Positions 12,177-31,787 of a DNA stretch of 64,000 nt are shown here, in pieces. Origin of the DNA: Chitinophagales bacterium (GTDB lineage Bacteria; Bacteroidota; Bacteroidia; Chitinophagales; JADJOU01); assembly GCA_030832185.1 (NCBI GenBank), contig JAURJQ010000003.1, positions 124,001 to 188,000 on the forward strand, read 5' to 3'. Positions within the stretch are counted from its first letter, which is position 1, and every line of letters begins with the position of its first letter. Below the pieces are notes generated by a model, which was not told the DNA's origin, did not search any database, and worked only from the letters and a program-made list of their open reading frames with translations. Made by a program: the position numbers and the translations under genes.

Positions 12177-15100
12177 ATGGTTAACAATTTACTCCTTTCT
12201 TCTGCAGATAAGAAAAATAAAAACCACAGCTATTCTAAATTCTTTTTACTAGCTTTTGTGGCTTTAGCCAATATGCAGAATAGTCTGACGGCACAGTATT
12301 CTGGCACGATCAGTATACCAAATGGCACCTTTGCTAATTTAGGTGTATTGATCGATTCTTTGAATCAATATGGTCTCAATGGTGCATTGACGGTGAATTT
12401 CACCGCAACACAAACAGCGCCTACTCTTGGCTATCAGCTAGGAAGTGCTGCGCTCAATGCGTCTATGAGTTCTACCAATACACTGACCTTTAATGGAGGT
12501 ACCATCAATGCCTATACAGGTGGGACACGAACGGGTACAGCCATTACTTTTGGCACATCTACTACCTATGGCTCCAACGATGCCATATTTGTAGTAAGGG
12601 GTACTGACTTTGTTCGCTTTACCAGTATGACATTTAATGAAAATGCTGCCAATACTAACAATGCTTCCGGTATGGAGAATGCGATTGCATTTCATAATCT
12701 GGCTGGGACGACAGGAGCTATGGATGGCTGCCAAAATATACAAATTACAGGATGTACATTTAATATGAATGATTTTGCTTCTTCCAATCAATATGTCATC
12801 TATGCTGTTAACACTCTTTATAGTGCTACTACCAATTTGATTTGGTCAGCTAATGGCGATATACATCGAGACTTTACTATAAATAACTGTACCTTTAATA
12901 ATGGTATGTCTCATATTATGATTAAAGGATCATATGACAATTTAAGTACATTTAGATATAATGGCGAAGGTACTGTCAGAAATGTCGTTGTATCCAATTC
13001 TAATTTCAGAAGAATAGGCGGTACTTCAGTTCAGCATGCTGGGGTTAACCTATTCGGAGTCGATACTCTTGATGTGTTCAATAATATTTTAGATATTGAT
13101 AGTATGCAAAGTACCACTTGTTATGGAGTGTTTAATCAAAATTGTGGCGGATACGGAAGAGTTTATAATAATGAAGTTACTTTTAAAAGAAATGCCAGTG
13201 GTACGAACACCTTAATCGCATTCGCTAATATACTCGATGCATTTGGTGATAACAGACCTTCTACTTCTACTGCCATAACTCGGAAAAATAAATTGTTTAT
13301 CGGATTTCATAATACAACCTTGATTACGCCTACTTCGTCTAATTCTAATACATTTATTTCTGCAGGTGCAAGATCCATTATTGCTTCTGCCAATACAAAT
13401 CTACCTTCATTGAATATTGTGGATAGTAATATGATGATTGGACAAACAATAATTGGAACTGGCCAATTTTTGTATACTCTCACTAATGGATATATCGGAC
13501 AAAAAAATATTATCAAGGATAATGTGTTTAAAAACTTCACAAGAAATGGAGTAAGCGGTACTACTTATGGTATCTTTACCAATGGTAATTATATAAATGA
13601 AATCTATAATAACCTAATTGATAGCATAAGATATACCCCACCTACTACACCCACTACAACCTCATCATCTACAATGTATGGCATTGTAAATCAAAATACA
13701 CAAACAACTTTAGCTGGAGGATATGCTAAGGTGTATAATAATATAATTAGTAATTTGAATTATTCTCAGCCATCTAGTTCTACAGCTAATTTAATAGGTG
13801 GTATTAGTATATTGGGTTTTAATGATAGCGTATATAATAATACGATTCGCAAGATATCTATGACTTTGACGAGTACGGGTGGAGGTAATGTCTATGGATT
13901 GGCTCCGCTAAACCATTCTACTACATATACACCTATGAATATTTATAATAATGTAATAGATAGTCTTAGTTTGGCAAACAATGGCACAGCGCAAGCAACT
14001 GCCTTTGTGCATGGGATTAGACATCAGAGTACAGGAACTATCAATATATTTAATAATTTTATAGGAGAACTATACAATTTGAACTCTAGCAATGTAGAAG
14101 CATTATCAGGAATATCAAATAGTTCTTCAGGGACTCTAAACTTGATCAATAACACTATCCAGTATGGTAGAATCGCTCCAATAAGTTCTTCTGGAACTGC
14201 ATTTGGAGGTTCGGGTGTTTCTTTTAATACAGGTATTACTTCTTTGAAAAATAATATTATCAATATCAAAGGCACTCCTGGCGCTACAGGAGGTAGTTTT
14301 ATAGCTGTTAGAAGAACCACCACAGGTACAGCTGGCACGAGACCAGCTAATTTCTCAGGAAATAATAATACCTATTCTATCAATACAAATAACAACAATT
14401 ATATTTACGCTGAGGGTACGACAGCAGCTTCACTTGTTAATGCACATTATATTAATAGTTCTGCTACCAATCCTGTTGGTAGTTTTGAAACCCAGGCATC
14501 GTTTAACAGTTCATGTAGTGTTTATAAGCAGTTTATGCAGGGAGAAGCGAGTACCTTCAATGAGGATATACTGGCTACTGCCCATGGTAGTGTACCTAAT
14601 GCGTTTACTCCTACAGGGTCCTCATTATCTGAAAGCTCGGGTGAGTTTATAGCCGCTACAGCCATAGATTTAGCAGGTTCATCGCGCGGAGCCAACTATG
14701 ATAGAGGAGCGTTACAGTTTTCTGGTACAGCTATTGATTTATCTGGTCCTACCATCACATTTACGCCGAGAGGTAATGTGAACTGCACCAATACAGCAGT
14801 CACTATCAGTGCTGAAATTGCAGATTTCACTGGTGTGAATACTACCACAGGCACTAGACCTAGGTTATATTATAGAAAAACGACTGATCCAGATACTTTT
14901 GTATCTGCCAATACAAGTGCTGCACCAGGTTGGAAATGGGTGGAGGCAAGTAATACCTCTTCGCCTTTTACCTTTACCTATGACTGGACTAAATTTGCGG
15001 CAGCCCCAGTGGTCAACGATACTATAACTTATTTCTTCGCAGCGCAAGACAATGTAGGTACTCCAAATGTTTCGATCAATGCTGCTACATTAATTCCTTC

Positions 15101-18100
15101 GACATCGTGTCCTGGTTCTGTAAATATTGCAGCTACGGCTGGTTTGACCAATGCCACTTCGCCTTATAGATTTATCATTGATGTAGCGCCTATTATCACT
15201 TTTGATGTCGCTAAAAATCCTATTTGTAGTGGTGATGCGGATACCATAAAAGCAAACCTTATTCTTACAGCTGCAGCGTCAGTTGGAACAGCTACTACCG
15301 CGGGACAAGGAACCGGACAGTCTCCATTTATGGGAGGTTGGGGTGGTACTAAGACTCAATTTATCATACGTGCAAGTGAATTGCAGGCGCAAGGTTTAGC
15401 CGCCGGAAATATTAATTCTATAGAATTATTTCCAACTACCTCTGGAACTACTTATGAAGGTTTTCAAATATGGATGGGAAATACTGCGCAAGCTGATTTA
15501 TCTACTGCATTTGTAGATACTTCTGCTATGACTAAAGTTTACGAAGCTACAGCAGCAGATGCAGCTTACACCCCTACAGCAAGTAGCTGGAATGTTTTCT
15601 CGGTCGGTACTACTCCTACCATACCACTAGGAAGTGCAGTGAGCTCTTCTTTTGTTTGGAATGGTACTTCCAATTTAGTTCTATGTTTTTCTTGGAGTGA
15701 AAATCCATCAGCAGCCACATCGACAGGTTCCAATTGTGAATTTAGCACAACTTCTTTCGTGGCTTCTAGGAAGTCACAAGCAGATAACTTGAGTATGGCA
15801 GCTATGTTAGGACAGACAACCTCAAGTATTGGTACAGCTAGTTCTAGACCTAATTTTAGAATCAATGGCAATAAAGGTCCATCTGTTAATCCTACAACAG
15901 GCTATACATGGTCTCCTTCTGGCCTAGGTACTGCGCAGACGATCTTCCCTTTCCCTTCGACCACACCTATTTCTAAATATAAGGTAACCGTAACGGATGT
16001 AAATGGCTGCCAATTCAATGATTCAGTGAGTATCAATGTTGATACTTTGCCTAAGCGTCTTCGAGTATTCAATTCCTTCCAATGTGGAGCAGGGGTACCT
16101 CCTACTGCCTTTAAGGTGAGAGATTCTAATGGATACACAACACCAAATATTGCGTGGTATGCATCGATGGCAGCTACCACACCGCTTCAGATAGGTCTAG
16201 ATACAATATATACCAGTACTGTTGGTTCTACCACGACCATGTTTGTATCTGTTCAGAGCCCAGCGGGCTGCTGGAGCCCTAGAGTACCGATTACTTTGAC
16301 AGTAAATACATCGGATTCTATCCTAGCGAGAGCTAATGGTGTCAGAGACACGATTAGAGTGTGCTCTGGTTCACCAGTTAATTTAACGGCTGTAAACGTA
16401 CAAATGCCAAGTATCACAAAATCATTTGATACTTTTACTTGGACATCCAATGATCCTAATTCAGGTATAGGTTCGCCTGTTGTAACTACAAACGGAAATC
16501 ATACCTTCACACCTTTGATTGGGGGTAACTATCAGCTTTACGTCAATGCGAAAGATACAGGGTCTGGTTGTAGTGCAGTAGATACGATTAAATTTAGTGT
16601 GCAAGCGAATCCGTTTACGGGCGGAGGATTCATAACGGCAGTTCCTAATCCTGTTTGTATTGGAACTAATGTAACACATTCCGTATTTATACCAAACCCT
16701 GCTGCTACCATTCCTTCACATTGTGCGTCTTCAGCAAGTAATACAGGAGACGAAGATATAGATTCTGTCGTGTTTGTAACAATAAGTAATACTTCTGCAT
16801 GTGCTTCATTAACTGGCTCTCAGGGCACAGCGACAGGGATTGCGGATAGATATTCTAATTTTGTAGGTTCCGCAGTGCCAGTGCCTTCTGTGAATGCAGG
16901 CGCTACCTACCCACTATCCGTAGGGATAGAGCAGTGCGGTGGCGGTGGCGGTTGGACGCATTCTACAACAGCTTTCTTTGACTGGAATAGAGATGGAGAC
17001 TTTTTAGATGCAAGTGAAAAATATGTAGTTGCCGACAATGTTTCAGGTGCAACTATCAGTACAGCTGCTACTATTAATATTACCATTCCTGCAAATGCAT
17101 CTAGTGGTAAGACGAGGATGAGGATTTCATCAAGAGAGTCTGCTGCTAGTGCTATTGATGGTTGCCATGTGGCGGCTGGCAATTGGGGTGAAACAGAAGA
17201 TTATGAAATAAATGTGGTAGGTCTTGCTGATACCAATTTTACTAAATTGTCATGGAAATCCAATCAAACTGGGGTTACTGTACTAGGGACTAATAATCCA
17301 TTAATTCACGCTTTACCGGCAGCATCAACAATATACACCATAAGAATGACTAATGGAGTTTGTATTGATTCTCTTAAAGATACCATTACAAATGCTGTTC
17401 CGCCTCTAGCTACTTCTTCTATCGCTGGACCTTCTAGTGCCTGTTTTGGTGACCAGTTGAGATTATCGACCAATACCACTGGAGCATGTACTCCATATAC
17501 ATATAATTGGTTTGTCGTCGGTGGTACAGGTGGTAATTTTACAGCTGTAGGTTCATTAAATAATGATACTATTTTATTTAATCCTACTGGCGCTACAGGT
17601 GCACGATCTATTCGTGTGGTCGTGACGGATCCTTTCGGTGCAAAAGATTCTACTACCCATACCATAAGCTATAATAATCCAACTCCGACGGCTATTGTAG
17701 ATGATACTGTTTGCGGGGCTCAAGCGGGTATATTGAGAGCTACTGCTACTCCAGCTAGTGATATCTTGAGATGGTATGCTTCACCTACCAGTTTTGAAGT
17801 ATTAGGAGTAGGTTCTAGTTTTACGACGCCTCCAGTGAGCGCTAATACTAAATTTTATGTAAGACAGTTTACATCATTAATTGACAGCGCTAATCCATTC
17901 ACTTCTTCTACATTCGGTAACGCAACATTACAACAAGGAATTAGAATGAATGTGACAAAGAAATTGATTTTGACCCATGCAGATATTTATCCATTTGGAG
18001 CACCAAACTCTTCGGGAACATTATCGGTAGAATTAAGAGATAATTTCGGAACCCCATTAGGAAGTGTAAATAATATTCCATTCAGTTATAATACAGGAGG

Positions 18101-21100
18101 TACAGCAGCTACAACGGCAGCTACATCTACTCCTGTCACTATTCCTTTGGGTATTTTAGTTCAGCCTGGTACAGGCTATGATTTAGTGATAACTGCTATA
18201 TCAGGAGCTAGCTTAGCGCATGGTAACGTAGGAACAGCCTTCCCATATAGTACTGCTACGGGATCACTATCTGTCACTGCAGGTAGAACAGCAACTGGCA
18301 CTACTGGATTTACAAGATACAACTTCTTCAACCTAAAAACAGAGGAAGGATGCTGGGGAGGTCCAGTGACTGATTCTGTTTTATTTATACCCCCACCTGC
18401 CATTACACTTTCTAGAAAAATAGATTCAGTATGCTCTTTAGGATCTACAACTCCTGTCACATTGACAGCCCCTTCTCCACTTTCTACTTATAATACTTAT
18501 GTTTGGACACCGAATACGAATATTACGGGTACCGGTGCGACAGGCTATACGTTTAGTGAGCCGAATCCAGGGACTTATTCTTATATACTGACTGGAACGC
18601 AGACAAGTGGACAACAGTGTGTGAATCGAGATACTTTTACCTTTAAAGTAAAAGCAATACCTCCTGTAATTACTAGAACACCTGCCACACCTAGTGTTGA
18701 TATATGTAATGGGACAATTCAACAACTGGATGCTTTAGGTTTCAGAATGACAGACCATGTGCTAGGTACAGCTACTACAGCTGGTGCAGGCGCTGGTCAG
18801 TCTCCTTTTATGGGAGGTTGGGGCGGTACTAAGTCTCAATTCATTATTAGGGCTTCTGAATTACCTTCGGGAGGTACGCCTAGAACACTTAAAGCTATTT
18901 CTATGACGGCCACCACATCAGGCACTACTTATGAAGGGATGCAGATGTATGTAGGTCATACTACTTTAACTGATTTCACTACAGTTGTAGACATTAATCC
19001 TGCTACCTTGACAAGAGTATATGAAGCGAATGCTGCTCTAGCTGCCTATACGCCAACGGTTGGTGTAAATACATTCACATTTGGTACGAAGCCTGCTACT
19101 CCATTAGGTTCAGCAGTGAGTGATAATTTCCTTTGGGATGGGACATCTAATATAGTTGTATTTACTTCTTGGAGTGAAAATCCAACGGCTGCTACCTCTA
19201 CGGCTAGTAATTTTGAATATAGTGCTACGTCATTTGTCGCTTCTATGCGAAGACAAGCTGATAACTTATCTATGGCAGATATGGCTTCACCAACTGCAGG
19301 TGGTACGTCTTCATCAGCCTCATTTAGACCTAATATGACATTAAGATTTGAAGATGGTGCTCCAATTACTTGGTCACCTACTACTAGTCTATTTACAAAC
19401 ACTATTGCTAGTATACCTTATACTGGTGCTAACAGCGATACTGTTTATGCTAGACCTGTGGATACTATTAAATATTTTGTAACAGCTACTTTTCCGAATG
19501 GATGTACTCGTATAGACAGCCTTACCTTAAACGTCAAGGACACGGTAACTATCACCACCCAGCCAGATGCATTTAAGGCTTTCTGTCAGGGAGACACTTT
19601 GAAATTATGTGTATCGGCTGCGTCTACCTCTCCTATGACTTATCAGTGGAAGAAGAATGGCTTGAATATAAGTACAGGTGGAAATGCATCCGCAGGTACT
19701 CCATGTTTGACAATTGTCAATGCGACTCAAGCAGATTCAGGTGCCTATGAAGTGGAAATATCTACAGGAACTCCTTGTGGTACAAGAACGTCTGCTTCTT
19801 CTATAGTGAAAGTAAGACTTCCTATTGCGATTACTACTCAACCAAAAGATACTACTGTCTGTGTAGGAGCACCATTCTGTCTGAGTGCTGCGGCTATGAA
19901 TGATAGTTCTCGAGTTTGGACACAACTTACAGGTGCGAATACAGGTACAAATAACACGTTATGTATATCAAGTTCTGTTTATGCTGATTCAGGTAGATAC
20001 TTTATCAGCTATATCCCTCAGACGCCATGTCCTGCGAAAAACAGTGATACAGTGAGAGTTCGAGTTTTACCACCAGCCCTTATTGTAGCGGATCCTGCTG
20101 CATTGACGACGCTATGTATCGGAGATTCAGTGACATTGAAAGCGAATCATACAGGAGCATTAAGCTTCCAATGGTTGAAAAACGGTAGTCCAATAAGTGG
20201 AGCTACTACAGATTCATTGAATGTCAAAGCGAATACACAATCAGATTCGGGTGAATACCGATTAGTTGTATACTCACCTGCGGGTTGTACGAATGATACA
20301 ACTACCGTGAATACGGGAGTGATAAAAATCAATTTGCCTGTCAATATAACAGCCCAGCCATTGGCTAAGACCTTTGTCTGTCAGAACTCACCATTTACAG
20401 CGAGTGTAGCAGCGAGCAATACGAGCGGTTATGAGTGGGAGAAAAATACGACGACTATTTCTGCAGCGACCAATGCTACATTTAATACTATTACAAGTGC
20501 GCAGCCAAGCGATGCTGGAGTGTATCGAGTTTTGGTCAAAGGTCTAGCACCTTGTCCTAATGTATACTCTACGAATGATACTCTAGAAGTGACAACACTT
20601 GCAGCGATTGCGACTCCTCCTACAGCCTTCCAGGTTTGTGAAGACCAGTCTATCAGTATCACTGGTGCAGCTAGTAATGTAGCGAGCTATCAGTGGTTGA
20701 GAAATGGAGTCGCTATATCTCCAAACGGAAATGTACAGACCTATACCAAAGGTGGTAGCCCTGCTACTATGTCTGATAGTGGTATGTATAGATTGGTGGC
20801 CTTATCCAATCCTGCAGGAGCGACGACCTGTAAAGCAGATACGTCTGTGGCCGTTCTAGGTGCTGTAGTCAGAAAAATTCAAATTTCGACACAACCATTG
20901 GCCAATACATTTGTATGTCAAAACTCAGCATTCAATACGAGTATAGTAGCCCAGAATGTGACAGGCTACCAGTGGAGAAAAGGAGCGAGCAATGTATCGA
21001 CAGGCACGGGAGGCACCACGGCCAGCTATAGTATAACTAACACTCAGCCTGCGGATGTGGGTGTCTATAGTGTAGTGATAACAGGAAATACGCCATGTCC

Positions 21101-24100
21101 GAGTGTGACGAGTACAAACAACACATTAGCAGTGACTACCTTAGCTGCGATTACGACACCTCCTACAGCCTTCCAAGTTTGTGAAGACCAGTTTATAAAT
21201 ATCACTGGTGCAGCAAGCAATGCTGCGAGCTATCAGTGGTTGCGAAATGGAGTAGCTATATCTCCAAATGGTAACGTGCAGACTTATACGAAAGGCGGTA
21301 GCCCAGCTACCATGTCTGATAGTGGTATGTATAGACTCGTAGCCCTATCGAATAATGCAGGCGCTACGACCTGTAAAGCCGATACGAGTGCTGCGGTTCT
21401 CGGAGCGGTAGTTAGAAAGATTATTGTTACAACCCAGCCACCAGTATTCTCTTACGGCTGTATCAACGCCAACTTCAGTATGAGTATCGTCGCACAGAAT
21501 GTGACGGGCTATAGTTGGAGATTGAATGGTAATCCAATTGGTCAAACGACGGCTGCGATGTCCAGAACACCATTTACAATAGCAGATACAGGAAACTATA
21601 CCGTGGTCATGACTGGAAATGGCCCGTGCCCAAGTGTAACGAGTAATATAGCAGAAGTAGATCCTACGACAGCGGCTATAATTACCACTGAGCCAGTGAG
21701 CGCGGATGTATGTTTAGGGAATAGTCTTACATTGACTGTAGCAGCTAGTGCACAGCAGTCTTATCAGTGGAGAAAGAATGGCGTGAATATCACAGGACAA
21801 AATGGACCTTCATTCACAATAAGTTCTGCAGCTTATGCAGATGCGGCCACTTACGACGTGATTGCTATCGCCTTTAATGGTTGTACGAATGATACGTCTA
21901 TAGGAGCAGTGGTGTCTGTCAAGACCCCATTGGCTATCACTAGTCCATTGGCGACTGCAGATGTTAAATGTGAAGGTCAGGCTATCAGTTATACCACTGG
22001 AGTATCAGGAGACGGACCATTTACCTATGCGTGGATATTGAATGGATCTTCTGTAGGTACCAATAGTGCCACTTATACGAAGACAAGTGCATTGACAGCA
22101 GACTCTGGAAGATATATCGTGACTATTCAAGGTAGCATGGCCTGTCCATCTTTGAGAGATACAATAGACGTCGATGTGAATAAAGCGCCTCAAATCGTGA
22201 TGCAACCGAATGGAGCTTCACCAGTATGTCTTGGTAACAATATAGTATTGACTGCTGCTGCGGTTAATCAAACAGCACTAGAATGGCATAAACAAGGCCT
22301 AGGCAGTCTGAGTCAGTCCGGCACTTCGTATACCTCTTCAGGTTCCACAACGGCAGATGGTGGTAACTACTTCGTGATAGCTAGAGCACAGCCATCGTGT
22401 AGTGATGTCACCTCTAGTTTATTCAATGTGGTAGTCAATATACCAGCAATTATAGCTTCTCAGCCTGTAGGTATGGATTTATTAGAAACTCCTGCAGGAT
22501 CTCATACCATGTCTGTTATAGCCTCAGGCACTGGCCCGTTGAGCTATCAGTGGTATAAGAATGGTGTTATAATACCGACAGCTACAGCCTCTAGCTTCGC
22601 GATTACTAATTATGTAGCGGCGGCTGATTCTGGATTATATTATTGTGAAGTCAAATCACCATCGCCATGCAGCAATACCGTATTATCGAGTATAGCTAAA
22701 ATTGCTACGGTCAAGTGTCCAGTAATTATGTTTGATACTTTACGTACTGTTAATATCTGCGCGGGTCGTCCATTTAGCTTGGATATAAAAGCTACCGGAG
22801 CATTGTCATACCAATGGTTTAGAAATAATGTAGCTATTCCAAATGCAAACTTTGCGAATTATTCCATTCCTGCAGCTAATCCTTCTCATACAGGAGTTTA
22901 TCGATGTAGAGTATTTGCATTTAACGAAGCTATATGCACGCCGACGTATACAGATTCTATTGTGGTGACTGTAAAAGACAAACCTTCAATTACCATGCAG
23001 CCTGAGCCTATTAGACTATGTGCCGCTTCTAGTCATACGATGCGCGTAACTGCTACCTTTGGCGAAACCTACCAATGGTATAGAAATGGTATTGCTATCT
23101 CACCAAATGGAGATAAGGATTCATTTATTTATAATAATGTAAATACCATAGGAGATGTATTTTATGTAGAGGTAGGTAATAATTTATGCCCTAGTACAAA
23201 CTCTAAATCAGTAACGCTTAAATCTGTAATACCAGCTAACCAAGTCTTCTTAGCTAATAATTCGGAGTTTGACTTGATAGAGCGTTGTAGCGATGCCAAT
23301 GGTTGGACCTACTATTCCAATACAACGCAGACAGAGCGATTATTGATGGGTATCAAAAAGAATGGTAATTTCATCACTGCCAAGCCAGATATCGAGCTAA
23401 TGAATGGTATTAGAGAATTGTCATCTATCAATACAGAGAATAGAGGAGCGATCCTAGGTGGTAGAATCTTTAATTTAGATATCACAGGTAAGATTCAGAA
23501 TGCATATGAGTTGAAGTTTTACTATAATAAGTCAGAAGGCGATGCGGTATTAACTCGATTGAACGATATCAAGCTAGCTAATCCAGGTCAGTTTAGCACT
23601 GATCGTATTGACTTGACCTTCTTACTGACAACTCAGCAGCCGTTTACGAGCTCATTATGGAGTAATCTTAGTATTCCATTGAATACTCCGCACACCATAT
23701 CTCAAAAGGATAAGGAATTCGGTGTAGAGAATAATGTAAACTATGTGATTCTTAAAAATCTGGTAAGCACTAAATTAGGAGGTACCCTATTTATGGATTA
23801 TACATTGAAAGCGAGCTCCCGCATTTCTTCTACGAATAGGAACGGCTTTGGTTTCTCATTGTATCCAGTTCCTACGATAGATGGTAAAGTGACCGTAGAT
23901 GTTAGTAGTAAACGCTTAAAGCCAATCTCTTTTACGGTAACAGATATGACAGGCAGAATAGTAGCTATATTTAATGAGAAGCATACCAGCCTAGAGAGTT
24001 CCCATATCTTTGACTTCAGTCAGTTAGCTAATGGAAACTATCAGTTGTTGATGACGAATGACGAAGAATCTGCTATTGGCAGATTTACTATCTCGAAGTA

Positions 24101-24101
24101 A
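12177..24101 (+). CDS. Giant Ig-repeat surface protein with T9SS sorting domain
   Basis: This is a 3,974-residue exported protein. A signal peptide ends near residue 40 (NSLTAQ-YSG). Residues about 45-840 look like a right-handed beta-helix, with many short repeats such as VYNNIISNL and IYNNVIDSL. Two related modules of roughly 190 residues start near 1037 and 2196, both with GQSPFMGGWGGTK. A GEVED-like domain (FFDWNRDGDFLD to ETEDYEINV) lies near 1600-1685. About 14 Ig-like modules of 80-90 residues, each with YQWxxNG and ADSGxY words, fill about 2460-3650. The last 80 residues (FSLYPVPTIDGK... to GRFTISK) form a type A T9SS sorting domain. It would be moved across the outer membrane and anchored or released. 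An adhesive role is inferred from architecture. Confidence 0.92.
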   Translation: MVNNLLLSSADKKNKNHSYSKFFLLAFVALANMQNSLTAQYSGTISIPNGTFANLGVLIDSLNQYGLNGALTVNFTATQTAPTLGYQLGSAALNASMSSTNTLTFNGGTINAYTGGTRTGTAITFGTSTTYGSNDAIFVVRGTDFVRFTSMTFNENAANTNNASGMENAIAFHNLAGTTGAMDGCQNIQITGCTFNMNDFASSNQYVIYAVNTLYSATTNLIWSANGDIHRDFTINNCTFNNGMSHIMIKGSYDNLSTFRYNGEGTVRNVVVSNSNFRRIGGTSVQHAGVNLFGVDTLDVFNNILDIDSMQSTTCYGVFNQNCGGYGRVYNNEVTFKRNASGTNTLIAFANILDAFGDNRPSTSTAITRKNKLFIGFHNTTLITPTSSNSNTFISAGARSIIASANTNLPSLNIVDSNMMIGQTIIGTGQFLYTLTNGYIGQKNIIKDNVFKNFTRNGVSGTTYGIFTNGNYINEIYNNLIDSIRYTPPTTPTTTSSSTMYGIVNQNTQTTLAGGYAKVYNNIISNLNYSQPSSSTANLIGGISILGFNDSVYNNTIRKISMTLTSTGGGNVYGLAPLNHSTTYTPMNIYNNVIDSLSLANNGTAQATAFVHGIRHQSTGTINIFNNFIGELYNLNSSNVEALSGISNSSSGTLNLINNTIQYGRIAPISSSGTAFGGSGVSFNTGITSLKNNIINIKGTPGATGGSFIAVRRTTTGTAGTRPANFSGNNNTYSINTNNNNYIYAEGTTAASLVNAHYINSSATNPVGSFETQASFNSSCSVYKQFMQGEASTFNEDILATAHGSVPNAFTPTGSSLSESSGEFIAATAIDLAGSSRGANYDRGALQFSGTAIDLSGPTITFTPRGNVNCTNTAVTISAEIADFTGVNTTTGTRPRLYYRKTTDPDTFVSANTSAAPGWKWVEASNTSSPFTFTYDWTKFAAAPVVNDTITYFFAAQDNVGTPNVSINAATLIPSTSCPGSVNIAATAGLTNATSPYRFIIDVAPIITFDVAKNPICSGDADTIKANLILTAAASVGTATTAGQGTGQSPFMGGWGGTKTQFIIRASELQAQGLAAGNINSIELFPTTSGTTYEGFQIWMGNTAQADLSTAFVDTSAMTKVYEATAADAAYTPTASSWNVFSVGTTPTIPLGSAVSSSFVWNGTSNLVLCFSWSENPSAATSTGSNCEFSTTSFVASRKSQADNLSMAAMLGQTTSSIGTASSRPNFRINGNKGPSVNPTTGYTWSPSGLGTAQTIFPFPSTTPISKYKVTVTDVNGCQFNDSVSINVDTLPKRLRVFNSFQCGAGVPPTAFKVRDSNGYTTPNIAWYASMAATTPLQIGLDTIYTSTVGSTTTMFVSVQSPAGCWSPRVPITLTVNTSDSILARANGVRDTIRVCSGSPVNLTAVNVQMPSITKSFDTFTWTSNDPNSGIGSPVVTTNGNHTFTPLIGGNYQLYVNAKDTGSGCSAVDTIKFSVQANPFTGGGFITAVPNPVCIGTNVTHSVFIPNPAATIPSHCASSASNTGDEDIDSVVFVTISNTSACASLTGSQGTATGIADRYSNFVGSAVPVPSVNAGATYPLSVGIEQCGGGGGWTHSTTAFFDWNRDGDFLDASEKYVVADNVSGATISTAATINITIPANASSGKTRMRISSRESAASAIDGCHVAAGNWGETEDYEINVVGLADTNFTKLSWKSNQTGVTVLGTNNPLIHALPAASTIYTIRMTNGVCIDSLKDTITNAVPPLATSSIAGPSSACFGDQLRLSTNTTGACTPYTYNWFVVGGTGGNFTAVGSLNNDTILFNPTGATGARSIRVVVTDPFGAKDSTTHTISYNNPTPTAIVDDTVCGAQAGILRATATPASDILRWYASPTSFEVLGVGSSFTTPPVSANTKFYVRQFTSLIDSANPFTSSTFGNATLQQGIRMNVTKKLILTHADIYPFGAPNSSGTLSVELRDNFGTPLGSVNNIPFSYNTGGTAATTAATSTPVTIPLGILVQPGTGYDLVITAISGASLAHGNVGTAFPYSTATGSLSVTAGRTATGTTGFTRYNFFNLKTEEGCWGGPVTDSVLFIPPPAITLSRKIDSVCSLGSTTPVTLTAPSPLSTYNTYVWTPNTNITGTGATGYTFSEPNPGTYSYILTGTQTSGQQCVNRDTFTFKVKAIPPVITRTPATPSVDICNGTIQQLDALGFRMTDHVLGTATTAGAGAGQSPFMGGWGGTKSQFIIRASELPSGGTPRTLKAISMTATTSGTTYEGMQMYVGHTTLTDFTTVVDINPATLTRVYEANAALAAYTPTVGVNTFTFGTKPATPLGSAVSDNFLWDGTSNIVVFTSWSENPTAATSTASNFEYSATSFVASMRRQADNLSMADMASPTAGGTSSSASFRPNMTLRFEDGAPITWSPTTSLFTNTIASIPYTGANSDTVYARPVDTIKYFVTATFPNGCTRIDSLTLNVKDTVTITTQPDAFKAFCQGDTLKLCVSAASTSPMTYQWKKNGLNISTGGNASAGTPCLTIVNATQADSGAYEVEISTGTPCGTRTSASSIVKVRLPIAITTQPKDTTVCVGAPFCLSAAAMNDSSRVWTQLTGANTGTNNTLCISSSVYADSGRYFISYIPQTPCPAKNSDTVRVRVLPPALIVADPAALTTLCIGDSVTLKANHTGALSFQWLKNGSPISGATTDSLNVKANTQSDSGEYRLVVYSPAGCTNDTTTVNTGVIKINLPVNITAQPLAKTFVCQNSPFTASVAASNTSGYEWEKNTTTISAATNATFNTITSAQPSDAGVYRVLVKGLAPCPNVYSTNDTLEVTTLAAIATPPTAFQVCEDQSISITGAASNVASYQWLRNGVAISPNGNVQTYTKGGSPATMSDSGMYRLVALSNPAGATTCKADTSVAVLGAVVRKIQISTQPLANTFVCQNSAFNTSIVAQNVTGYQWRKGASNVSTGTGGTTASYSITNTQPADVGVYSVVITGNTPCPSVTSTNNTLAVTTLAAITTPPTAFQVCEDQFINITGAASNAASYQWLRNGVAISPNGNVQTYTKGGSPATMSDSGMYRLVALSNNAGATTCKADTSAAVLGAVVRKIIVTTQPPVFSYGCINANFSMSIVAQNVTGYSWRLNGNPIGQTTAAMSRTPFTIADTGNYTVVMTGNGPCPSVTSNIAEVDPTTAAIITTEPVSADVCLGNSLTLTVAASAQQSYQWRKNGVNITGQNGPSFTISSAAYADAATYDVIAIAFNGCTNDTSIGAVVSVKTPLAITSPLATADVKCEGQAISYTTGVSGDGPFTYAWILNGSSVGTNSATYTKTSALTADSGRYIVTIQGSMACPSLRDTIDVDVNKAPQIVMQPNGASPVCLGNNIVLTAAAVNQTALEWHKQGLGSLSQSGTSYTSSGSTTADGGNYFVIARAQPSCSDVTSSLFNVVVNIPAIIASQPVGMDLLETPAGSHTMSVIASGTGPLSYQWYKNGVIIPTATASSFAITNYVAAADSGLYYCEVKSPSPCSNTVLSSIAKIATVKCPVIMFDTLRTVNICAGRPFSLDIKATGALSYQWFRNNVAIPNANFANYSIPAANPSHTGVYRCRVFAFNEAICTPTYTDSIVVTVKDKPSITMQPEPIRLCAASSHTMRVTATFGETYQWYRNGIAISPNGDKDSFIYNNVNTIGDVFYVEVGNNLCPSTNSKSVTLKSVIPANQVFLANNSEFDLIERCSDANGWTYYSNTTQTERLLMGIKKNGNFITAKPDIELMNGIRELSSINTENRGAILGGRIFNLDITGKIQNAYELKFYYNKSEGDAVLTRLNDIKLANPGQFSTDRIDLTFLLTTQQPFTSSLWSNLSIPLNTPHTISQKDKEFGVENNVNYVILKNLVSTKLGGTLFMDYTLKASSRISSTNRNGFGFSLYPVPTIDGKVTVDVSSKRLKPISFTVTDMTGRIVAIFNEKHTSLESSHIFDFSQLANGNYQLLMTNDEESAIGRFTISK
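20338..21421 (+). repeat. Tandem two-module repeat inside the giant gene
   Basis: Ig modules alternate A-B-A-B with a period of 543 bases. The B copies (about 20606-20878 and 21151-21421) encode nearly identical protein, sharing ASYQWLRNGVAISPNGNVQ and MSDSGMYRLVALSN, and the A copies share AKTFVCQNS/ANTFVCQNS. Many differences are synonymous, so the duplication is recent but not brand new. Confidence 0.8.
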
Positions 24102-24159: not shown

Positions 24160-24283
24160 ATAGCTAGAAACAATTTATTTTTCAAATATTTGGTAATCGG
24201 TATAAAATTTAAGGACCTATGGTATATGATTTATATTTGTATGAGAAAATGGAGTTACGTACATAAATAGATATCAATTGCAT

Positions 24284-25861
24284 ATGAGGTTAATTTCTCT
24301 TTTAGTATTATTCTTAATTCCTTTCCTAGCAGATGCCCAGTCTTGCTATTTGGTCTATTTAAAACCCAAAGTTATAAGTAATTCTAAATTGTCCATTTCT
24401 CGTGAATCCATGGAAAGAAAGCGACGCTTTCAAATAGAAATAGATGAAAAAGATTATGCTATCGAAGAGACACGAGTAGTTAAAATTGAATCTATTTCTC
24501 CTGTACTAAATAGTTCTAGGTGGTTAAATGCTGTTTCAGTGCTATGCACTACAAAAGATATAGATAGAGTTAAGGATTTGAGCTTTGTAGACCATATAGA
24601 GCTGCTACATTCTCCTATTAGTATAAAAAAAACGACTTCTCAGAAACTAGAATCAAACTATACTAAAGAACAATATGGACAGACGTTCAATCAAATAAAG
24701 CTTCATAATGGACAAATATTGCATGATGCTGGTTATGAAGGTCAGGGTATGAAAATAGCCGTGTTTGATGCAGGCTTTGATCGAGTCGATAAAATAGCAT
24801 CCTTTAAACATTTATTTTTAGATAATAGAATTTTCCCGATCAAGAATATTGTAGAAAACTCCAGTAATTTATATACTCTGGATGGGCATGGAACAGCCGT
24901 ATTAGGATGCATGGCATCCTACTTCCCAGATAGCATCGTGGCCTCCGCACCTAAAGCATTTTATTATCTATTCATTACGGAGGATCCGCGCAGTGAGACT
25001 CGAATAGAAGAGTTCAACTGGGCAGTGGCAGCTGAAATGGCTGATAGTATGGGTATCGATATAATTAATTCTTCTCTGGGGTATCATCAGTTTGATGATC
25101 CAAGCCAGAATTATTCTCGAGAGGATATGAATGGAAAAACAACTATTGTTTCTAAGGCGGCCTCTATAGCTATTTCCAAGGGCATTGTTGTCGTCAATTC
25201 TGCGGGGAATCATGGAAATAAAGATTGGCAGATTATAACTGCACCAGCGGATGTAGCGGATGTGATTTCAGTAGGTGCCTTAGACAATGAAGCTAATCTA
25301 GCTGATTTCAGTTCTAGAGGTTATTATAAATTAAATCAAATTAAACCTAATATAGTAGGTGTAGGCAAAGGCACGACCCTCTACTATGATCTAGGTAGTT
25401 ACTTTTATGGTAGCGGTACCTCGTTTTCGAGCCCCTTGCTAGCAGGTCTCATAGCTTGTTTTTGGCAAAAAAATAAGGAGTTATCGCCATCTGAACTTCG
25501 CACTGTATTGTATTCTTTGAGCTCTAATTATCTATCACCTAATTATGAAATAGGTTTTGGTATTCCTAAGTTTGAATTACCTATAAACAAAAGAGTTATA
25601 GAAATGAAGGATCGCATTCTTTCGGTTTACCCAAACCCATCTTCTGGAAACACTATTTTGGAGATCAGTGCTACCGAAGCTTTTGAAAATGCTGAGATAG
25701 AGATTTATTTTTCCCATAAAGCAATTATGAAGAATAAGGTAAAACTCCAAAAAGGGGTTAACCATATTTTTTTAAATACAGATAACTATGCCAAAGGCAT
25801 CTACTTTTTTAAAGTAAAAATGGGAAATTATATTTTAGAAGAAAGGTATCTAAAATATTAG
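24284..25861 (+). CDS. S8 subtilisin-like protease with T9SS sorting domain
   Basis: This secreted serine protease has about 525 residues. A signal peptide (to LADA-QSC) is followed by a region of about 120 residues that may be a propeptide. The catalytic triad is visible as AVFDAGF (Asp162), GHGTAV (His202) and GTSFSSP (Ser380), with the oxyanion Asn in VNSAGNHGN. The C-terminal 80 residues (SVYPNPSSGNT to EERYLKY) are a T9SS type A sorting domain. ATG 24284 was preferred to a TTG two codons upstream. It sits between the giant cargo gene and the porV-porU locus. Substrates are unknown; processing of surface proteins is one possibility. Confidence 0.92.
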   Translation: MRLISLLVLFLIPFLADAQSCYLVYLKPKVISNSKLSISRESMERKRRFQIEIDEKDYAIEETRVVKIESISPVLNSSRWLNAVSVLCTTKDIDRVKDLSFVDHIELLHSPISIKKTTSQKLESNYTKEQYGQTFNQIKLHNGQILHDAGYEGQGMKIAVFDAGFDRVDKIASFKHLFLDNRIFPIKNIVENSSNLYTLDGHGTAVLGCMASYFPDSIVASAPKAFYYLFITEDPRSETRIEEFNWAVAAEMADSMGIDIINSSLGYHQFDDPSQNYSREDMNGKTTIVSKAASIAISKGIVVVNSAGNHGNKDWQIITAPADVADVISVGALDNEANLADFSSRGYYKLNQIKPNIVGVGKGTTLYYDLGSYFYGSGTSFSSPLLAGLIACFWQKNKELSPSELRTVLYSLSSNYLSPNYEIGFGIPKFELPINKRVIEMKDRILSVYPNPSSGNTILEISATEAFENAEIEIYFSHKAIMKNKVKLQKGVNHIFLNTDNYAKGIYFFKVKMGNYILEERYLKY

Positions 25862-25899
25862 AGTATTCAAATCTTGCCAGAGATTAATTGAGATCTTTT

Positions 25900-27114
25900 T
25901 TACCAGTAACTATCTTTCTTGTTTTCACCGATGTTAAATCCTATAGATACTCTCATTTGATTATCTAGCGGCGAGCGCTGCTGAGTAATCGGAAGTAGGT
26001 AAGAAAAATCTAATTGCATAGCGGCGTATTTAAGCCCCAAGCCAGCCGTGATGAATTGTCTACCGCCAGCGCCTTCAGGTTCGTAAAAGAATCCAGCGCG
26101 CACGAAATATGTTTTTTGATAGGCATACTCTCCACCTATATGGGTTATAATTTCGCCTAATTCTCCACCTATCCCATTTGCATGATCTCCAAATGATGTT
26201 AGCATACCAGCGATAGATCCCAATTCTTTAAAATCAGGAATAGTATTTCTATTGGCATCCACAAAGGAAATTTTACCTTGATTATCTTTTGAGTAGGTAG
26301 GAGTCGGAACTAGCAGTTTATCAAATTGGAGACTAGCGCTAAATGAGTTGTGTTCATCTATTTGCCCTTCAAAACAAGCACCTAGGGCCATATTGGTAGG
26401 AATAAAATCGGGCTGCCCATTCGCACTATATTGAATTTTTGATCCAATGTTAGAAATATTTACCCCTACATTAAGTTTCGACTCTTGTAAACGTCCAATC
26501 TCTAATTTTTTCGAATAGAATGCTGCAAAATCGACAGAAAATGCAGAGCCAGAAGGTATCTGGTTGGTTGCTGTCGTAGCTCCATTGGATAAATCGGATA
26601 AAATATATCTTCCAGAAGCGCCAATGCCTAAGCTTTCTGAGAGTCTAAACGAATAATGACCTTCCAATGCAAATTCGTAGGGTTTGGAAATACCTAAATC
26701 ATTCCCTGAGGCATCTTTGTAATTTATTTGACCCAAGGTAAAATAACGTACACTGAGTCCTGCTGCATGGTTCGGAGAGATCTTCGTATAACCATTTGCA
26801 TTGATGAGATAGATGTCATTCGTAATCTGTCTGAGCCAAGGGGCAAAATTGATAGAAGCTCCTTTGTCCTTATCAATAAAGGCTAATTTAGCAGGATTAT
26901 GAAATCCACTAGAATTATCAGCTGAGGTAGCTACACCAATTTCGGCCATGCCTGCAGATCTAGCATCGGTGGCTATGCGCATGAACGGAACACCAGTGGT
27001 TATAACGTATTCAAGTCCATTATGATCTAAGGTACCTTGCGAAATTCCCTGAATTGAAACTAAGATGAATGAAATAATGGAAATATTTTTCCCTACGGCT
27101 CTATTAAATATCAC
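25900..27114 (-). CDS. porV: T9SS outer-membrane protein PorV
   Basis: This 404-residue FadL-like beta-barrel has a signal peptide (cleavage near ISQG). It carries the PorV hallmark VPFMRIATDARSAGMAEIGV, then SGFHNPAKLAF and a long run of alternating beta strands ending GFNIGENKKDSYW. PorV is the outer-membrane shuttle that receives T9SS cargo from the SprA translocon and passes it to PorU in the attachment complex. It lies 46 bases downstream of porU on the same strand, the standard order, so the two are probably cotranscribed. The start is GTG 27114. Confidence 0.93.
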   Translation of the reverse strand: MIFNRAVGKNISIISFILVSIQGISQGTLDHNGLEYVITTGVPFMRIATDARSAGMAEIGVATSADNSSGFHNPAKLAFIDKDKGASINFAPWLRQITNDIYLINANGYTKISPNHAAGLSVRYFTLGQINYKDASGNDLGISKPYEFALEGHYSFRLSESLGIGASGRYILSDLSNGATTATNQIPSGSAFSVDFAAFYSKKLEIGRLQESKLNVGVNISNIGSKIQYSANGQPDFIPTNMALGACFEGQIDEHNSFSASLQFDKLLVPTPTYSKDNQGKISFVDANRNTIPDFKELGSIAGMLTSFGDHANGIGGELGEIITHIGGEYAYQKTYFVRAGFFYEPEGAGGRQFITAGLGLKYAAMQLDFSYLLPITQQRSPLDNQMRVSIGFNIGENKKDSYW

Positions 27115-27160
27115 TGTTTTATCTATATATTATTTAAAACTCAACGCAAAGAAACAAATT

Positions 27161-30100
27161 TTATTGTAATAAAACTAGTTTTTCGTATTTACTGGCAGTT
27201 TCTCCTTTTGTATCACGTATGGTTAAGGTATATACATACACCCCTTTACCTAATTTATCGCCAAAATCATCCAATCCATTCCACTGAATTTGGTCTTTTA
27301 CTCTAAATCCTTCGGTACTTAATTTTTGATGAATACGCTTAACTACTCTACCTGTAATTGTCATGATATTAATAGATATATCCAGAATCTCATTAGGTCT
27401 ATTATGCTCAAATTCAAACCGCGTATTGGTGGTGAATGGATTCGGATAATTCAGTAAATGAAAAAGCGCTATTTTTTCTGATGAGGCTACTATAAATTCA
27501 GTGTATCCTTCGCCAGGATTATTATAAACATCCCATGCTTTGACCTTTAGGGTATGTCGTCCATCTTTTAGCTTATAGTAAGGATAATTTATTTGCCCAT
27601 TCATAAAATCTCCTTGATTCGTTCTGTAATAGCTATTTAAGTTTATTGGTAATCTTAGGTTATCGTCCAATATGGCTGTAATATCATGACCAATGCCTGC
27701 TCCAGTCGTATTAATCCCACTTGAGTCAAATAGTTTGACCAAAAGAATAGGATCTGAATTGGTTAATCCCCCAAATGCAAATTTCTCATCATTCATAAAT
27801 AGTTGAACTTTGGGTGGTTGATTATCTGCCGCTGCATTTAGATTAGCGCCTCCTATCCATACGTTGGTATCCATACCAGCGGCATCTCTATAGGGCTTTT
27901 GATTTACATCTGCTGCATAGTATGAGATTTTTCCACGCCCCATGGCATAGTTTATATCCTTAGGTACGATAAATTCGATAGTGAATTTCCCATCTTTAAC
28001 CAAAGTACTTCCGCGAAACAATCTACTTTGCTGAGTTTTAAAGGTGTCACCGGGTATTTTTGGTTCTTTTGTGTCGTTATAGTTCAATTTATTTTGACTA
28101 GGTTTATCTAACACCGTGATTTGACAAAAACCATTGAAATCAGCCATTAGATTATTAGTTAAATCTCTTACCTCTCCTTTAATTGTGACTTTGCTCAGAG
28201 ATTTTAGGGTGTCGTCTGTTCCATTAGAAATAGAGGTGGTTATAACATTGTACTTTGGTAGATTTATTTCTAAGGCAGGATCACCTATTAAAACTACTTT
28301 CTGAGAGTTGCTATTGATGACACTTTTGGTAGCTCTGGCTATTTGCCCTAGAGTCGTATTGGTTCTATTGAAAAAGCTGGCAAAAAAATCATTCATAAAT
28401 GGGCCTTGATCTGAGATATAAACCTCTCTACAGGTAGTGAGTAGACCAATAGCTCCTCCATCTTTTTGCAGAAAATATCTTTCTCCCGCTGATTTATTGC
28501 TGGCATTAGGTTTGTCATAGGGAGCAAAACCGCAGGTAGCCGTAGTCACAAAAGGTAATGAGTAAATGTTTTTATAGATAGGTAAATCATTGGAAGATAG
28601 GATGCGTTCTTGAGACCAGTTGGACTCCCCTCCATGTCCTACATAGGTCATAAGAATATTACCAAAGGTAAAATTATCTTTTACTAATTTCTCTACGTCT
28701 TCATAACGCTGACCTCCGGAGAATTGTTGCTGAAAAAAGGCGTCGAGATAGACCTTGTTTTGGAGGGTTTTTACATTATCTGCAATAAGTTTTTTACTCA
28801 CCGTTTCATTTTGGCTATAAAAGTCTGCATCAGACTGTGTATCATAATCATCTGCCACCAGTGTAGTCTGATTTCGCCAATCGCCATAGGATTCTTTCGC
28901 TTTATATTTCTTTATTTTATTTACTACATCTCTAGCTTCTTCTATACTAGACACGGGTAGTCTACCTATGCCATAAGCCATGGTCTTTATCGCATCGTTT
29001 AGATTAGTATCGGCTAGAATATCGAGTCCATAAATATCATCTGTAGGAAATGATTGAGAGAAATCACTCGAAAATAAGGTTTCATAAGTAGGAACGTAAT
29101 CTTCACAGGTGTTCGAAGTTTTATTGACCCTTTTATAGTCTACGCAGGGCTTTCCAAATAGAGTCACTGTAGAAAGTTTTTCCGGGGCAGAGAGACCTTT
29201 TACAGCTATTTCATTTATAAATCGGCGGATAGCAGTCACGTCTTTATTTCCCGAGCTATACTCATTATATATAGTCTCTACATCTACTACATGTGTCACT
29301 ATGCCTCTCTCTTCTTTATGAAATTCACCAAGCTCCTTAGCCTGATTTAACCAGTTTTTATGCGAAATAATTACATTATGGGCAGCACTTAGATTTTTCA
29401 AGTCTTGATTGTCTATTTTTCCTACAGCGATAGGTGTAAAAGCTTTAATATCCTCAAAGACGACAAACTCGCTGGTAGCAGAGGCATTGCTGAAAACGTG
29501 ATTTTTATTTGAGAGGGATTTATAGGCACCAATAGTGGTCACATCCCATAGTTTAGCATTTTGTGCTCCACTGAGATTGAATTGAATATTATTGCCACTT
29601 CCAGCCTCATCTTTAAATCTAAATGTATACTGATCCCCACTGTAAGTCAAAGGCGCTTTGGCATTGACGGTGATATAATCTAGATAGAAATTCTCATTGA
29701 TAGCCCCATTAATACTAAAGCTAATTTTTGCATTTGCCCCAGGGCAGAGCATCTGAAAGGTATCTATTTGTATCTTATCCGAAGCGCTCAGTAGCAGGGA
29801 TTTTACAAAATTACCATTGACATTTATGGAAAGGTTTACTCCTACTAATCTGGTAAGATAGCTATAGGTGATTGTCATTTTTTCTCCATTCGTACAGCTA
29901 CTAATTGGTAGATCTGTATTGATAGTTTTTACTGTGTTATTAATGGTATATGCATACCATATTCTTCCAGAAAGATTGGGATTGAAGGAATCTATATCTT
30001 GAATGCCAAGGTAGTCATAGCTTGAATAAGTGCGCACGGGCGAACCACTGGGGCCTGCTGCTATCATTTTTTTATTGCTGCCTTCTGTAGTGGTTAGAAA

Positions 30101-30542
30101 AAAATGCTGCACAGAAGTATAATAGGCGGACGTATGTTTGAACCAACCATCTTGTTTGTCGAGAAATTTACCGAAAGGACCATCTGCATAGAATAAAATA
30201 TAATCTTCTTTATCTATCTGATTATTTCCATTGACATCGACTATTTCGATGTTATTTTCTTTTACTTGATTCACATTCGCTACATAATATTCTGGCAGTG
30301 GGCCACCACCATAACCGAATATTCCTAGATTAGATGTTTTTAAGTCATCTGTCTTAATCTTGAGCTCATTGACCATGAAATTATAATCTAATTTGTATAC
30401 CCCAGGTCTATTTATACTAAATTTGTACCAATTGCCTTGTTTAAAAATAGAATTGGCCTTCAGTTGAAAATTGAATATAAAAATAAAACTGAATACTAAA
30501 AGCACCAGTCTATGCGTTAGTAAGACATGATTATATTTCATA
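27161..30542 (-). CDS. porU: T9SS sortase-like peptidase PorU
   Basis: PorU is a gingipain-family (C25) cysteine peptidase of about 1,126 residues. It removes the C-terminal sorting domain of T9SS cargo at the cell surface and links the cargo to a glycolipid anchor. A signal peptide occupies the first 30 residues. The catalytic His is in YVGHGGESNW (about 633) and the Cys in VTTATCGFAPYD (about 669), the usual spacing. The C-terminal NYPNPFTTNTRFEFEH to GVYVYTLTIRD stretch is an uncleaved sorting-type domain, as in known PorU. I prefer ATG 30542 to an upstream in-frame TTG. It is divergent from the PorP-like gene. Confidence 0.94.
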
Positions 30543-30640
30543 TTGGATTTCAAATATAGGTAGAATAACTTATATTATTAATTTTGTATTTTTAAATTTG
30601 ATCAGGGTAGTAAATCTTAAGTAATAACAACGATAAAGGA

Positions 30641-31642
30641 TTGAAAAAATTTCATATAATGTTTATTGTTTTAATGCAGCTTGCGAATAGTTGGGCTCAG
30701 GATATTCATTTCTCCCAGTTAGCTCAAACTCAGTTCTTTTCAAACCCAGCGTTTGCTGGGATACAGTTTGGTCCGCGTGTTTTAGCTCATTATAGAAACG
30801 AATACCCCAATATAGGGAGTCAAATCAATTCTGGATTCAATACTTATTTTATATCCTATGATCAATTCTTGAAAAATTATAATAGTGGTCTAGGTGCGCA
30901 GGTCATAGCGGATAAATTCGGAGATAATCTGTATTCAAGATACTACATCAATATTAACTATGCTTATCAAGCTAAATTTAATGAATACAATGCATTGCGT
31001 TTTGGGTTATCTGCAAATATGATTCACCAGCAATTAGACAAATCTAAATTGGTATTTTTTGATCAGATTGATCCTATTAACGGATTCAATCAGCTAGCCG
31101 CCAGTGAAGAGGATATTTCCAATAGTTTTTCTCAAACGAATTTCAATCTAAATGCCGGTATAGTTTATTTTACGAATTACTTCTATGCGGGTTTGAGTGC
31201 CCGTAATCTGCTGCCGAGAAACAACTTTCAAGGAATAGCATCCAAGCAATTTGAAGATATGACCATTTCAGCCCAGGTTGGAGGTGTGTATTGGTTGAAT
31301 CAAGATAAAAGAATTGCTTTATTTCCCTATTTTTTATTTGACAGGCAATATGATTATCAAAAATATGTAGGTAATATACTTTATCAATATGAAACATTAA
31401 ATCTGGGATTAGGTTTTCGTCATAATGCTCGAGATTTAGAGTCTATAATTTTCTTGGTGGGATTTAATTTTAATAAACTTAGAATAAGCTATTCTTATGA
31501 CTTAAATACAAGCGGAATTAAATCATATACAGGTGGTTCTCATGAGGTTGGTGTGCGAATTTTATTTAAGGGGGAGGATAATTCTCTCTATCCAAATGAG
31601 TACAAAAACATACTTTTTTGTCCAGATTTTATGAAAAACTAA
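30641..31642 (+). CDS. PorP/SprF-family T9SS outer-membrane protein
   Basis: This 333-residue protein starts with a signal peptide ending NSWA-QD, then DIHFSQLAQTQFFSNPAFAG, the PorP/SprF opening motif, and a barrel-like run of strands ending HEVGVRILFKG. PorP-type proteins form outer-membrane barrels. Some bind the PorE/PG1035-type peptidoglycan anchor, and SprF-type members help secrete specific partners such as SprB. Here no large adhesin is directly paired on the same strand, but gldJ follows after 145 bases. The start is TTG 30641, giving MKKFHIMFIV; the first ATG (30659) would strip the basic residues off the signal peptide. Confidence 0.9.
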   Translation: MKKFHIMFIVLMQLANSWAQDIHFSQLAQTQFFSNPAFAGIQFGPRVLAHYRNEYPNIGSQINSGFNTYFISYDQFLKNYNSGLGAQVIADKFGDNLYSRYYININYAYQAKFNEYNALRFGLSANMIHQQLDKSKLVFFDQIDPINGFNQLAASEEDISNSFSQTNFNLNAGIVYFTNYFYAGLSARNLLPRNNFQGIASKQFEDMTISAQVGGVYWLNQDKRIALFPYFLFDRQYDYQKYVGNILYQYETLNLGLGFRHNARDLESIIFLVGFNFNKLRISYSYDLNTSGIKSYTGGSHEVGVRILFKGEDNSLYPNEYKNILFCPDFMKN

Positions 31643-31673
31643 AAAAATGTACAATAAATATTAAAAAATGCGT

Positions 31674-31750
31674 TATCTTAGCAAACTGAATTGGATAATT
31701 TAAAATTAAAAGTTCAAGCTTTGTGAGAATTTATTCCTCAAACCTTGAAA
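31674..31750 (+). promoter_or_regulatory. gldJ leader: -7-like box and imperfect hairpin
   Basis: TATCTTAGC (31674-31682) is one base from the -7 consensus. Downstream, TTCAAGCTTTG (31713-31723) pairs imperfectly with CAAACCTTGAA (31739-31749) in the transcribed leader about 40 bases before the gldJ ATG. There is no T run after the hairpin, so it is not an obvious terminator. Confidence 0.35.
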
Positions 31751-31787
31751 TTAAAAGTATAATAAAATCAAAATAAATAACAAACAC

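Follow-up and report, generated by a model that had tools for sequence, protein, structure and literature searches.

A giant T9SS-tailed protein of a Chitinophagales bacterium with predicted passenger domains inside split Ig-like domains

In the RTX adhesins AhLap and FrhA, and in MpIBP as cited there, split Ig-like domains project ligand-binding domains, according to the available portions of two studies (PMC12077191, PMC10865825), the second of which also describes split domains as hard to detect by sequence methods. The grappling hook protein GhpA is secreted by the type IX secretion system (T9SS), as stated in the accessible part of PMC11205867. For the CBM-like N-terminal domain of FjoAcXE-type acetyl xylan esterases, the corresponding part of PMC9105624 reports that Arg25, Asn26, and Arg139 contact sugar.

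Here, we describe a giant protein encoded in a 64,000-nucleotide stretch of a Chitinophagales contig (JAURJQ010000003.1, hereafter the window; Table 1). We consider it probable that this protein is a T9SS-exported giant adhesin showing exchangeable passengers, which would bind ligands, from split Ig-like domains.

Domain architecture of the giant protein

Table 1. Features of the giant protein and the adjacent genes (slots A to D are the split Ig-like domains).
Feature	Residues	Window positions	Strand	Basis
Giant surface protein, 3974 aa		12177..24101	+	ATG start, no internal stop; Pfam GEVED, Ig families, Por_Secre_tail
Presumed parallel beta-helix, N-terminal	about 61-850	12357..14726	+	N-ladder motifs; homologues 37-90% identity
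Slot A, first half of split Ig-like domain	1002-1030	15180..15266	+	Own Ig profile 9.1 bits, model positions 5-28; AF2 strands E7-12, E25-30
Slot A passenger, unnamed predicted jelly-roll module, copy 1	1036-1230	15282..15866	+	Copy-copy alignment, profile envelope, AF2 pLDDT 93.3
Slot A, second half of split Ig-like domain	1241-1288	15897..16040	+	Own Ig profile 28.8 bits from model position 35; AF2 strands E243-247, E266-274, E280-290
Slot B, first Ig half	1482-1507	16620..16697	+	4.1 bits alone
Slot B passenger, GEVED + N-terminal extension	1508-1689 (Pfam part 1598-1679)	16698..17243	+	PF20009 60.1 bits; hypervariable vs G002
Slot B, second Ig half	1690-1742	17244..17402	+	15.5 bits from model position 37; 20.9 joined
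Slot C, Ig_7 first part through strand F	1833-1900	17673..17876	+	Pfam Ig_7 48.2 bits alone, 53.1 joined
Slot C passenger, module 2 (DUF4082-like)	1901-2055	17877..18341	+	Profile matches, hhalign
Slot C, Ig_7 strand G	2056-2076	18342..18404	+	Joining extends Ig_7 match from profile position 65 to 77
Slot D, first Ig half	2161-2193	18657..18755	+	6.3 bits, model positions 6-29
Slot D passenger, unnamed predicted jelly-roll module, copy 2	2196-2390	18762..19346	+	Copy-copy alignment, profile envelope
Slot D, second Ig half	2395-2454	19359..19538	+	25.8 bits from model position 37; 34.7 joined
Stalk, 14 uninterrupted Ig-like domains	2452-3682	19530..23222	+	Own Ig profile
T9SS C-terminal sorting domain	3895-3970	23859..24086	+	PF18962 31.6 bits, cut-off 27
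Subtilase with T9SS tail		24278-25861
PorV		25900-27114	-
C25 peptidase		27161-30553	-
PorP/SprF		30641-31642
FGE-sulfatase-fold protein		31788-33284

A first-pass annotation, made from the letters of the window, had described an N-terminal beta-helix, two distant copies of a module of about 190 residues, a GEVED-like domain, about 14 Ig modules and a T9SS tail. Pfam confirmed the GEVED domain (cut-off 24.4 bits) and the tail, and placed Ig_3, Ig_2, Ig_7, and I-set above their cut-offs, while the NCBIfam search of the whole protein returned no family at E ≤ 1. Both copies of the module were recovered, with the string GQSPFMGGWGGTK at residues 1047 and 2207. The figure of about 14 Ig modules agrees with the unbroken series at the C-terminus, where our own Ig profile gives 14 matches, and falls short for the protein as a whole, since residues 1000-2460 hold about eight more Ig-like domains, four of them split. 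The scant Pfam coverage of that region may be due to the tendency of split domains to evade sequence methods.

The presumed beta-helix is backed by sequence motifs: it has 17 overlapping N-ladder motifs, with about nine rungs at residues 300-690, compared with three in the other 3074 residues and with a mean of 2.5 and a maximum of 10 in 2000 shuffles. This region had no match in Pfam or PDB. The stretch between it and slot A (GPTITFTPRGNVNC..., residues 860-998, window about 14754-15170) is common to the homologues according to the consensus, and matched no Pfam family.

Directly downstream of the giant ORF lies a T9SS-related cluster (24278-33284), whose C25 peptidase we take to be of the PorU type. 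Farther along the window, a 1146-aa ORF (38436-41876) matched no Pfam family at E ≤ 0.001.

Split Ig-like domains and their passengers

The first-pass annotation had listed these parts without their nested arrangement. Rather than a separate bead in a chain, the module is placed inside a split Ig-like domain by the split-Ig test, the AlphaFold2 (AF2) model and the PKD alignment. Profile matches, and for slot A the model as well, put both window copies of the module between strands B and C of an interrupted Ig/PKD-like domain, in its BC loop; in slot A the chain runs from ..NPICSGDADTIKANLIL through the module to YTWSPSGLG..YKVTVTDVNGC... The profile matches place GEVED at slot B in the same way, between strands B and C, and the unnamed, DUF4082-like module 2 in the FG loop of the slot C Ig_7 domain. 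With our Ig profile, the joined halves score higher than the best single half in every slot (41.4 vs. 28.8 bits in A, 20.9 vs. 15.5 in B, 15.5 vs. 12.7 in C, and 34.7 vs. 25.8 in D); against Pfam Ig_7, the joined halves of slot B give a weak match below the cut-off (E 0.0036). Module 2 has profile matches in 19 sources, the window included, some of them overlapping loci. In hhalign it resembles DUF4082 (PF13313) with probability 61 and E 7.8e-5, the DUF4082 set having seven rows; in Pfam the window segment is unmatched by PF13313, and two homologues match below the cut-off.

Flanks of modules from many genera show the same split-Ig frame. For a quantitative test, the Ig profile was trained on domains away from modules and retrained with the modules and 60 aa on each side masked. 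A copy was counted as BC if the upstream stretch ended at strand B and the downstream one began at strand C, and as FG if the cut fell between strands F and G. Among 188 of the 221 distinct full-length copies (the other 33 have too little flank), 120 were nested, 103 as BC and 17 as FG, compared with 32 of 1050 random cuts (25 and 7) of equal length, placed in those frames and judged by identical criteria. These counts are descriptive, because the final criteria, including the limit of 48 residues on the upstream stretch, were set after results of earlier versions had been seen. A stricter first version, demanding one joined match across the junction, gave 10/188 vs. 2/182; the second gave 46 BC copies of 188 vs. 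10 of 875 random cuts, but used the best upstream match, which was often the preceding whole domain, and hence the upstream stretch was restricted.

The proportion of nested copies depends on the source: 32/39 in relatives, 80/125 in genome_contigs, and 3/18 in the even draw across the phylum. The last figure means that the module does not require a split Ig-like domain, and nesting is therefore a habit of this order and its neighbours, not of every member of the module family. Many copies from that draw are free-standing and un-nested, beside a signal peptide or immediately ahead of the sorting tail.

An AF2 model of residues 1000-1300 was built on 89/91 non-redundant nested rows plus the two window rows (91 rows; pLDDT 88.0, pTM 0.82). 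Foldseek found nothing at E ≤ 0.001 for this model. A solved PKD domain (2y72) aligns with its residues 4-291 (82/85 residues, Z 9.9, rmsd 2.3), thus using both flanks, whereas the acetyl xylan esterase (AcXE) structure 7toj aligns with residues 30-237 only (Z 10.5, rmsd 3.2, 157 aligned). This suggests that the two halves form one complete Ig/PKD fold around the passenger.

A scan for split Ig-like domains with any insert of 70-400 aa yielded 32 cases, 26 with the module, three with GEVED and three with other inserts, in a set biased by the loci having been fetched for the module. The three other inserts may point to more kinds of passenger; by eye, two of them look like choice-of-anchor J/cleaved-adhesin domains, which is our presumption.

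The unnamed module: family, distribution and fold

The two window copies, of about 195 residues each, are 56-59% identical (56% over 194 columns, E 5e-66). The annotation could not assign the module to a named family and suggested that it may be undescribed, proposing HMM search and structure prediction as checks. Searches of Pfam-A and NCBIfam bear this out as far as names go: no family matched either window copy, and among 77 diverse members (75/126 non-redundant members plus the two window copies) no Pfam family matched more than two and no NCBIfam family more than one at E ≤ 0.1, the single-member Pfam matches being MNNL, CbiM, and others. PF13313 left the window copies unmatched and hit one of the 77 members at E 0.04. 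By hhalign, the module matches DUF4082 with a probability of 1.6%, the DUF4082 side being thin (7 rows); that alignment pairs strands that look equivalent.

The module is not rare but spread across the phylum. The genome of the window protein has three further copies: a 4028-aa paralogue on contig C4 contains one, and a 1984-aa frame on C28 contains the other two, which are divergent. The module is present in 47 of 60 relatives and, in the draw across the phylum, in 62 of 392 genomes. A scan of genome_contigs found 150 relatives among 224 pattern stretches, and the 78 loci kept are mostly from Bacteroidota (Flavobacterium, Chryseobacterium, Chitinophagaceae, Bacteroidales, Saprospirales); a few bear titles of other groups. 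Three contigs carrying the module are titled Nitrotoga, Gammaproteobacteria, and Cloacimonetes, of which the first two are MAGs and may be misbinned. Searches of plasmids and of PHROGs with the module returned no matches.

Among 34/46 complete module-bearing ORFs, Pfam found Por_Secre_tail in 24, Ig_7 in 11, fn3 in 10, and GEVED in eight; a few have a peptidase or PNGase F domain. The NCBIfam model TIGR04183 does not match the tail of the window protein and matches 25 of 34 other module-bearing ORFs. In the phylum draw, PorV is present in all 62 module-bearing genomes, and none of the 73 PorV-less genomes carries the module (p 8e-7, with relatedness ignored and the lists compared by eye). The tail family and this link with PorV suggest that the window protein is exported by the T9SS and anchored at the cell surface.

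The AF2 model of the module, built on the 77-row alignment, is a confident beta-sandwich (pLDDT 93.3, pTM 0.90). Foldseek gave a best E of 0.024, with nothing at E ≤ 0.001, and its candidates were re-ranked with VIA-align 2, rows within about one Z unit being treated as tied. The nearest are a phage baseplate protein (Z 10.6, rmsd 3.2, 148 aligned) and the CBM-like AcXE domain (7toj, 7toh; Z 10.3, rmsd 3.2-3.3, 153-155 aligned), followed by PVA esterase (Z 9.6), the Cwp84 lectin-like domain (Z 9.4) and PHR domains (Z 7.9). Because of these ties the predicted fold is described as a CBM- and lectin-type jelly-roll, with no finer assignment. In profile searches of PDB, the module matched no AcXE chain at E ≤ 10 and gave a match to Delta (7alk) at E 0.033. 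Matches to DotG/IcmE were set aside as chance, since they rest on short SELKAAG-like repeats. We consider it unlikely that the module is a remote member of a known family: the fold neighbours AcXE and PHR and the equivalent-looking strands of DUF4082 favour this, but the low hhalign probability, the Pfam results for the 77 members, the PDB profile search for AcXE chains and Foldseek at E ≤ 0.001 speak against it.

In the open-access literature searched, the string WDGTSN is absent, as is T9SS together with "GEVED domain", and no title or abstract on split or inserted domains, T9SS adhesins or T9SS jelly-rolls treats the module. Relative to that literature, the passenger family, its phylum and the slot-wise exchange appear to be new, the display principle being known from another secretion route. 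A Bacteroidota-wide unnamed domain, mostly found in T9SS-tailed proteins, gains a boundary, a fold and a placement rule.

Slot-wise differences, proposed working and known systems

Seven giant homologues, taken from the genome of the window protein and from three further genomes of its genus, served for comparison. The slot A passenger is the module in the window protein, G002, G003b, and G001b, and GEVED in C4, G003a, G001a, and G001c. G002 is the orthologue of the window protein (N-terminus 89% identical); G003b and G001b are more distant. In the tree, the window slot A module clusters with slot D modules (support 100/99), and it is 56-59% identical to its own slot D copy vs. 26-29% to the slot A modules of G003b and G001b. 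The window protein and G002 are 89-94% identical over the N-terminus and stalk vs. 27-77% per 30-residue stretch across slot B, and the slot B GEVED of the window protein is closer to the slot A GEVED of G001c (66%) than to that of G002 (49%). The dips in identity are deepest at one slot per pair: B for window/G002, A for G001b/G003b, and C for C4/G003a.

The frame behaves differently in different slots. The second Ig half of slot D is 57-99% identical among the eight proteins, and the passengers go down to 22-36% in most of the distant pairs, the sharpest case being G001b vs. G001c, with 93% in the second Ig half and 28% in the passenger. In slot A, the Ig halves are as divergent as the passengers (19-34% between the window protein and the GEVED-bearing proteins), so the exchanged unit there may be the whole split domain. 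The identity valley at slot B extends into the second Ig half. Fast divergence of passengers without exchange could also yield such valleys; the only evidence against it comes from the trees and from the switch of passenger kind at slot A, where paralogues are compared.

Taken with the model, the sequences argue for both the nesting and the slot-by-slot difference, and the protein would work as follows. The C-terminal tail, as in its family, would provide passage through the T9SS and a hold at the cell surface, and the rod of 14 Ig-like domains would carry the N-terminal part outward. Between the rod and the N-terminal beta-helix would stand the four split Ig-like domains, two holding the module, one GEVED and one the DUF4082-like module. 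As in RTX adhesins, splitting would bring the two termini of the passenger to the same side and push its far face off the rod. By this analogy, such projection makes the passengers the most likely binding parts, and they would bind ligands. Since the Ig frame stays constant while a slot takes a different or strongly diverged passenger, the target could be changed with the frame left unchanged; different plug-ins at the same spots look like a way to alter the grip of the cell with the arm intact.

The passengers might instead be structural, the jelly-roll and GEVED domains stiffening, bulking or protease-shielding the fibre and changing fast under weak constraint. In favour of such a role, no ligand is known, GEVED is counted as a stalk domain by its authors in the available part of PMC10952558, and the only invariant positions among the 77 module members, W129 and G131, give no pointer to one conserved binding site. 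We nevertheless regard a structural role as unlikely, because drift is exceeded both by the switch from one kind of passenger to another at slot A and by the grouping of a slot A passenger with those of slot D, and the nearest solved folds include a sugar-touching CBM-like domain and a lectin-like domain. Far less probable still is that the nesting is only apparent, with the module between two separate degenerate Ig domains: taken alone, the upstream halves in slots A, B, and D do score weakly (4-9 bits), and Pfam recognises no Ig family in the joined domains of A and D, but the AF2 model rebuilds a single PKD domain from both halves, the cut falls at the same strand boundary in 103 copies, and the first half is without strands C-G and the second without A-B.

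If the exchangeable passengers do bind, the binding parts of many T9SS adhesins could be excised at known borders for assay. More tentatively, and with rather less confidence than in the display of passengers itself, the four split Ig-like domains might be standing sockets, with Bacteroidota shuffling ligand-binding plug-ins among sockets and genes via recombination in the conserved Ig halves. This would amount to a modular recognition repertoire on a grappling-hook-like stalk, one frame switching between targets such as prey, algae or polymers.

The known systems resemble the window protein in different parts. GhpA of Aureispira sp. CCB-QB1 (5898 aa) is the closest solved relative of the stalk (E 1.2e-55, residues 2434-3383), but the module profile does not match it at E ≤ 10, although GhpA was in the searched library. 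The module shares its predicted fold with the CBM-like N-terminal domain of FjoAcXE-type esterases (7toh, 7toj, 7tok), yet has neither sequence match to AcXE nor an adjoining esterase. The slot B passenger, like the slot A passenger of four homologues, belongs to the GEVED family (PF20009) of CshA-type adhesins; here it lies inside an Ig-like domain, whereas in those adhesins it follows the CshA NR2 domain, as described in the accessible part of PMC10952558. Similarity to DUF4082 (PF13313) in hhalign is confined to module 2 and does not extend to the unnamed predicted jelly-roll module (the GQSPF module).

One close parallel is with the RTX adhesins, which, in the available portions of PMC12077191 and PMC10865825, are likewise giant, carry a run of Ig-like extender domains, and have an Ig-like domain interrupted by a second domain that emerges from it, as predicted here. 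The window protein differs in ending in a T9SS tail instead of RTX repeats (no RTX-repeat family is among its 15 Pfam families at E ≤ 1), in belonging to Bacteroidota, in carrying a passenger without a listed family, and in having four mid-protein slots with differing passengers. The main text of PMC12077191 on split-Ig RTX adhesins, as far as available, mentions neither Bacteroidota nor the T9SS. By analogy, we regard the window protein as a probable T9SS equivalent of the RTX adhesins that present ligand-binding domains from split Ig-like domains.
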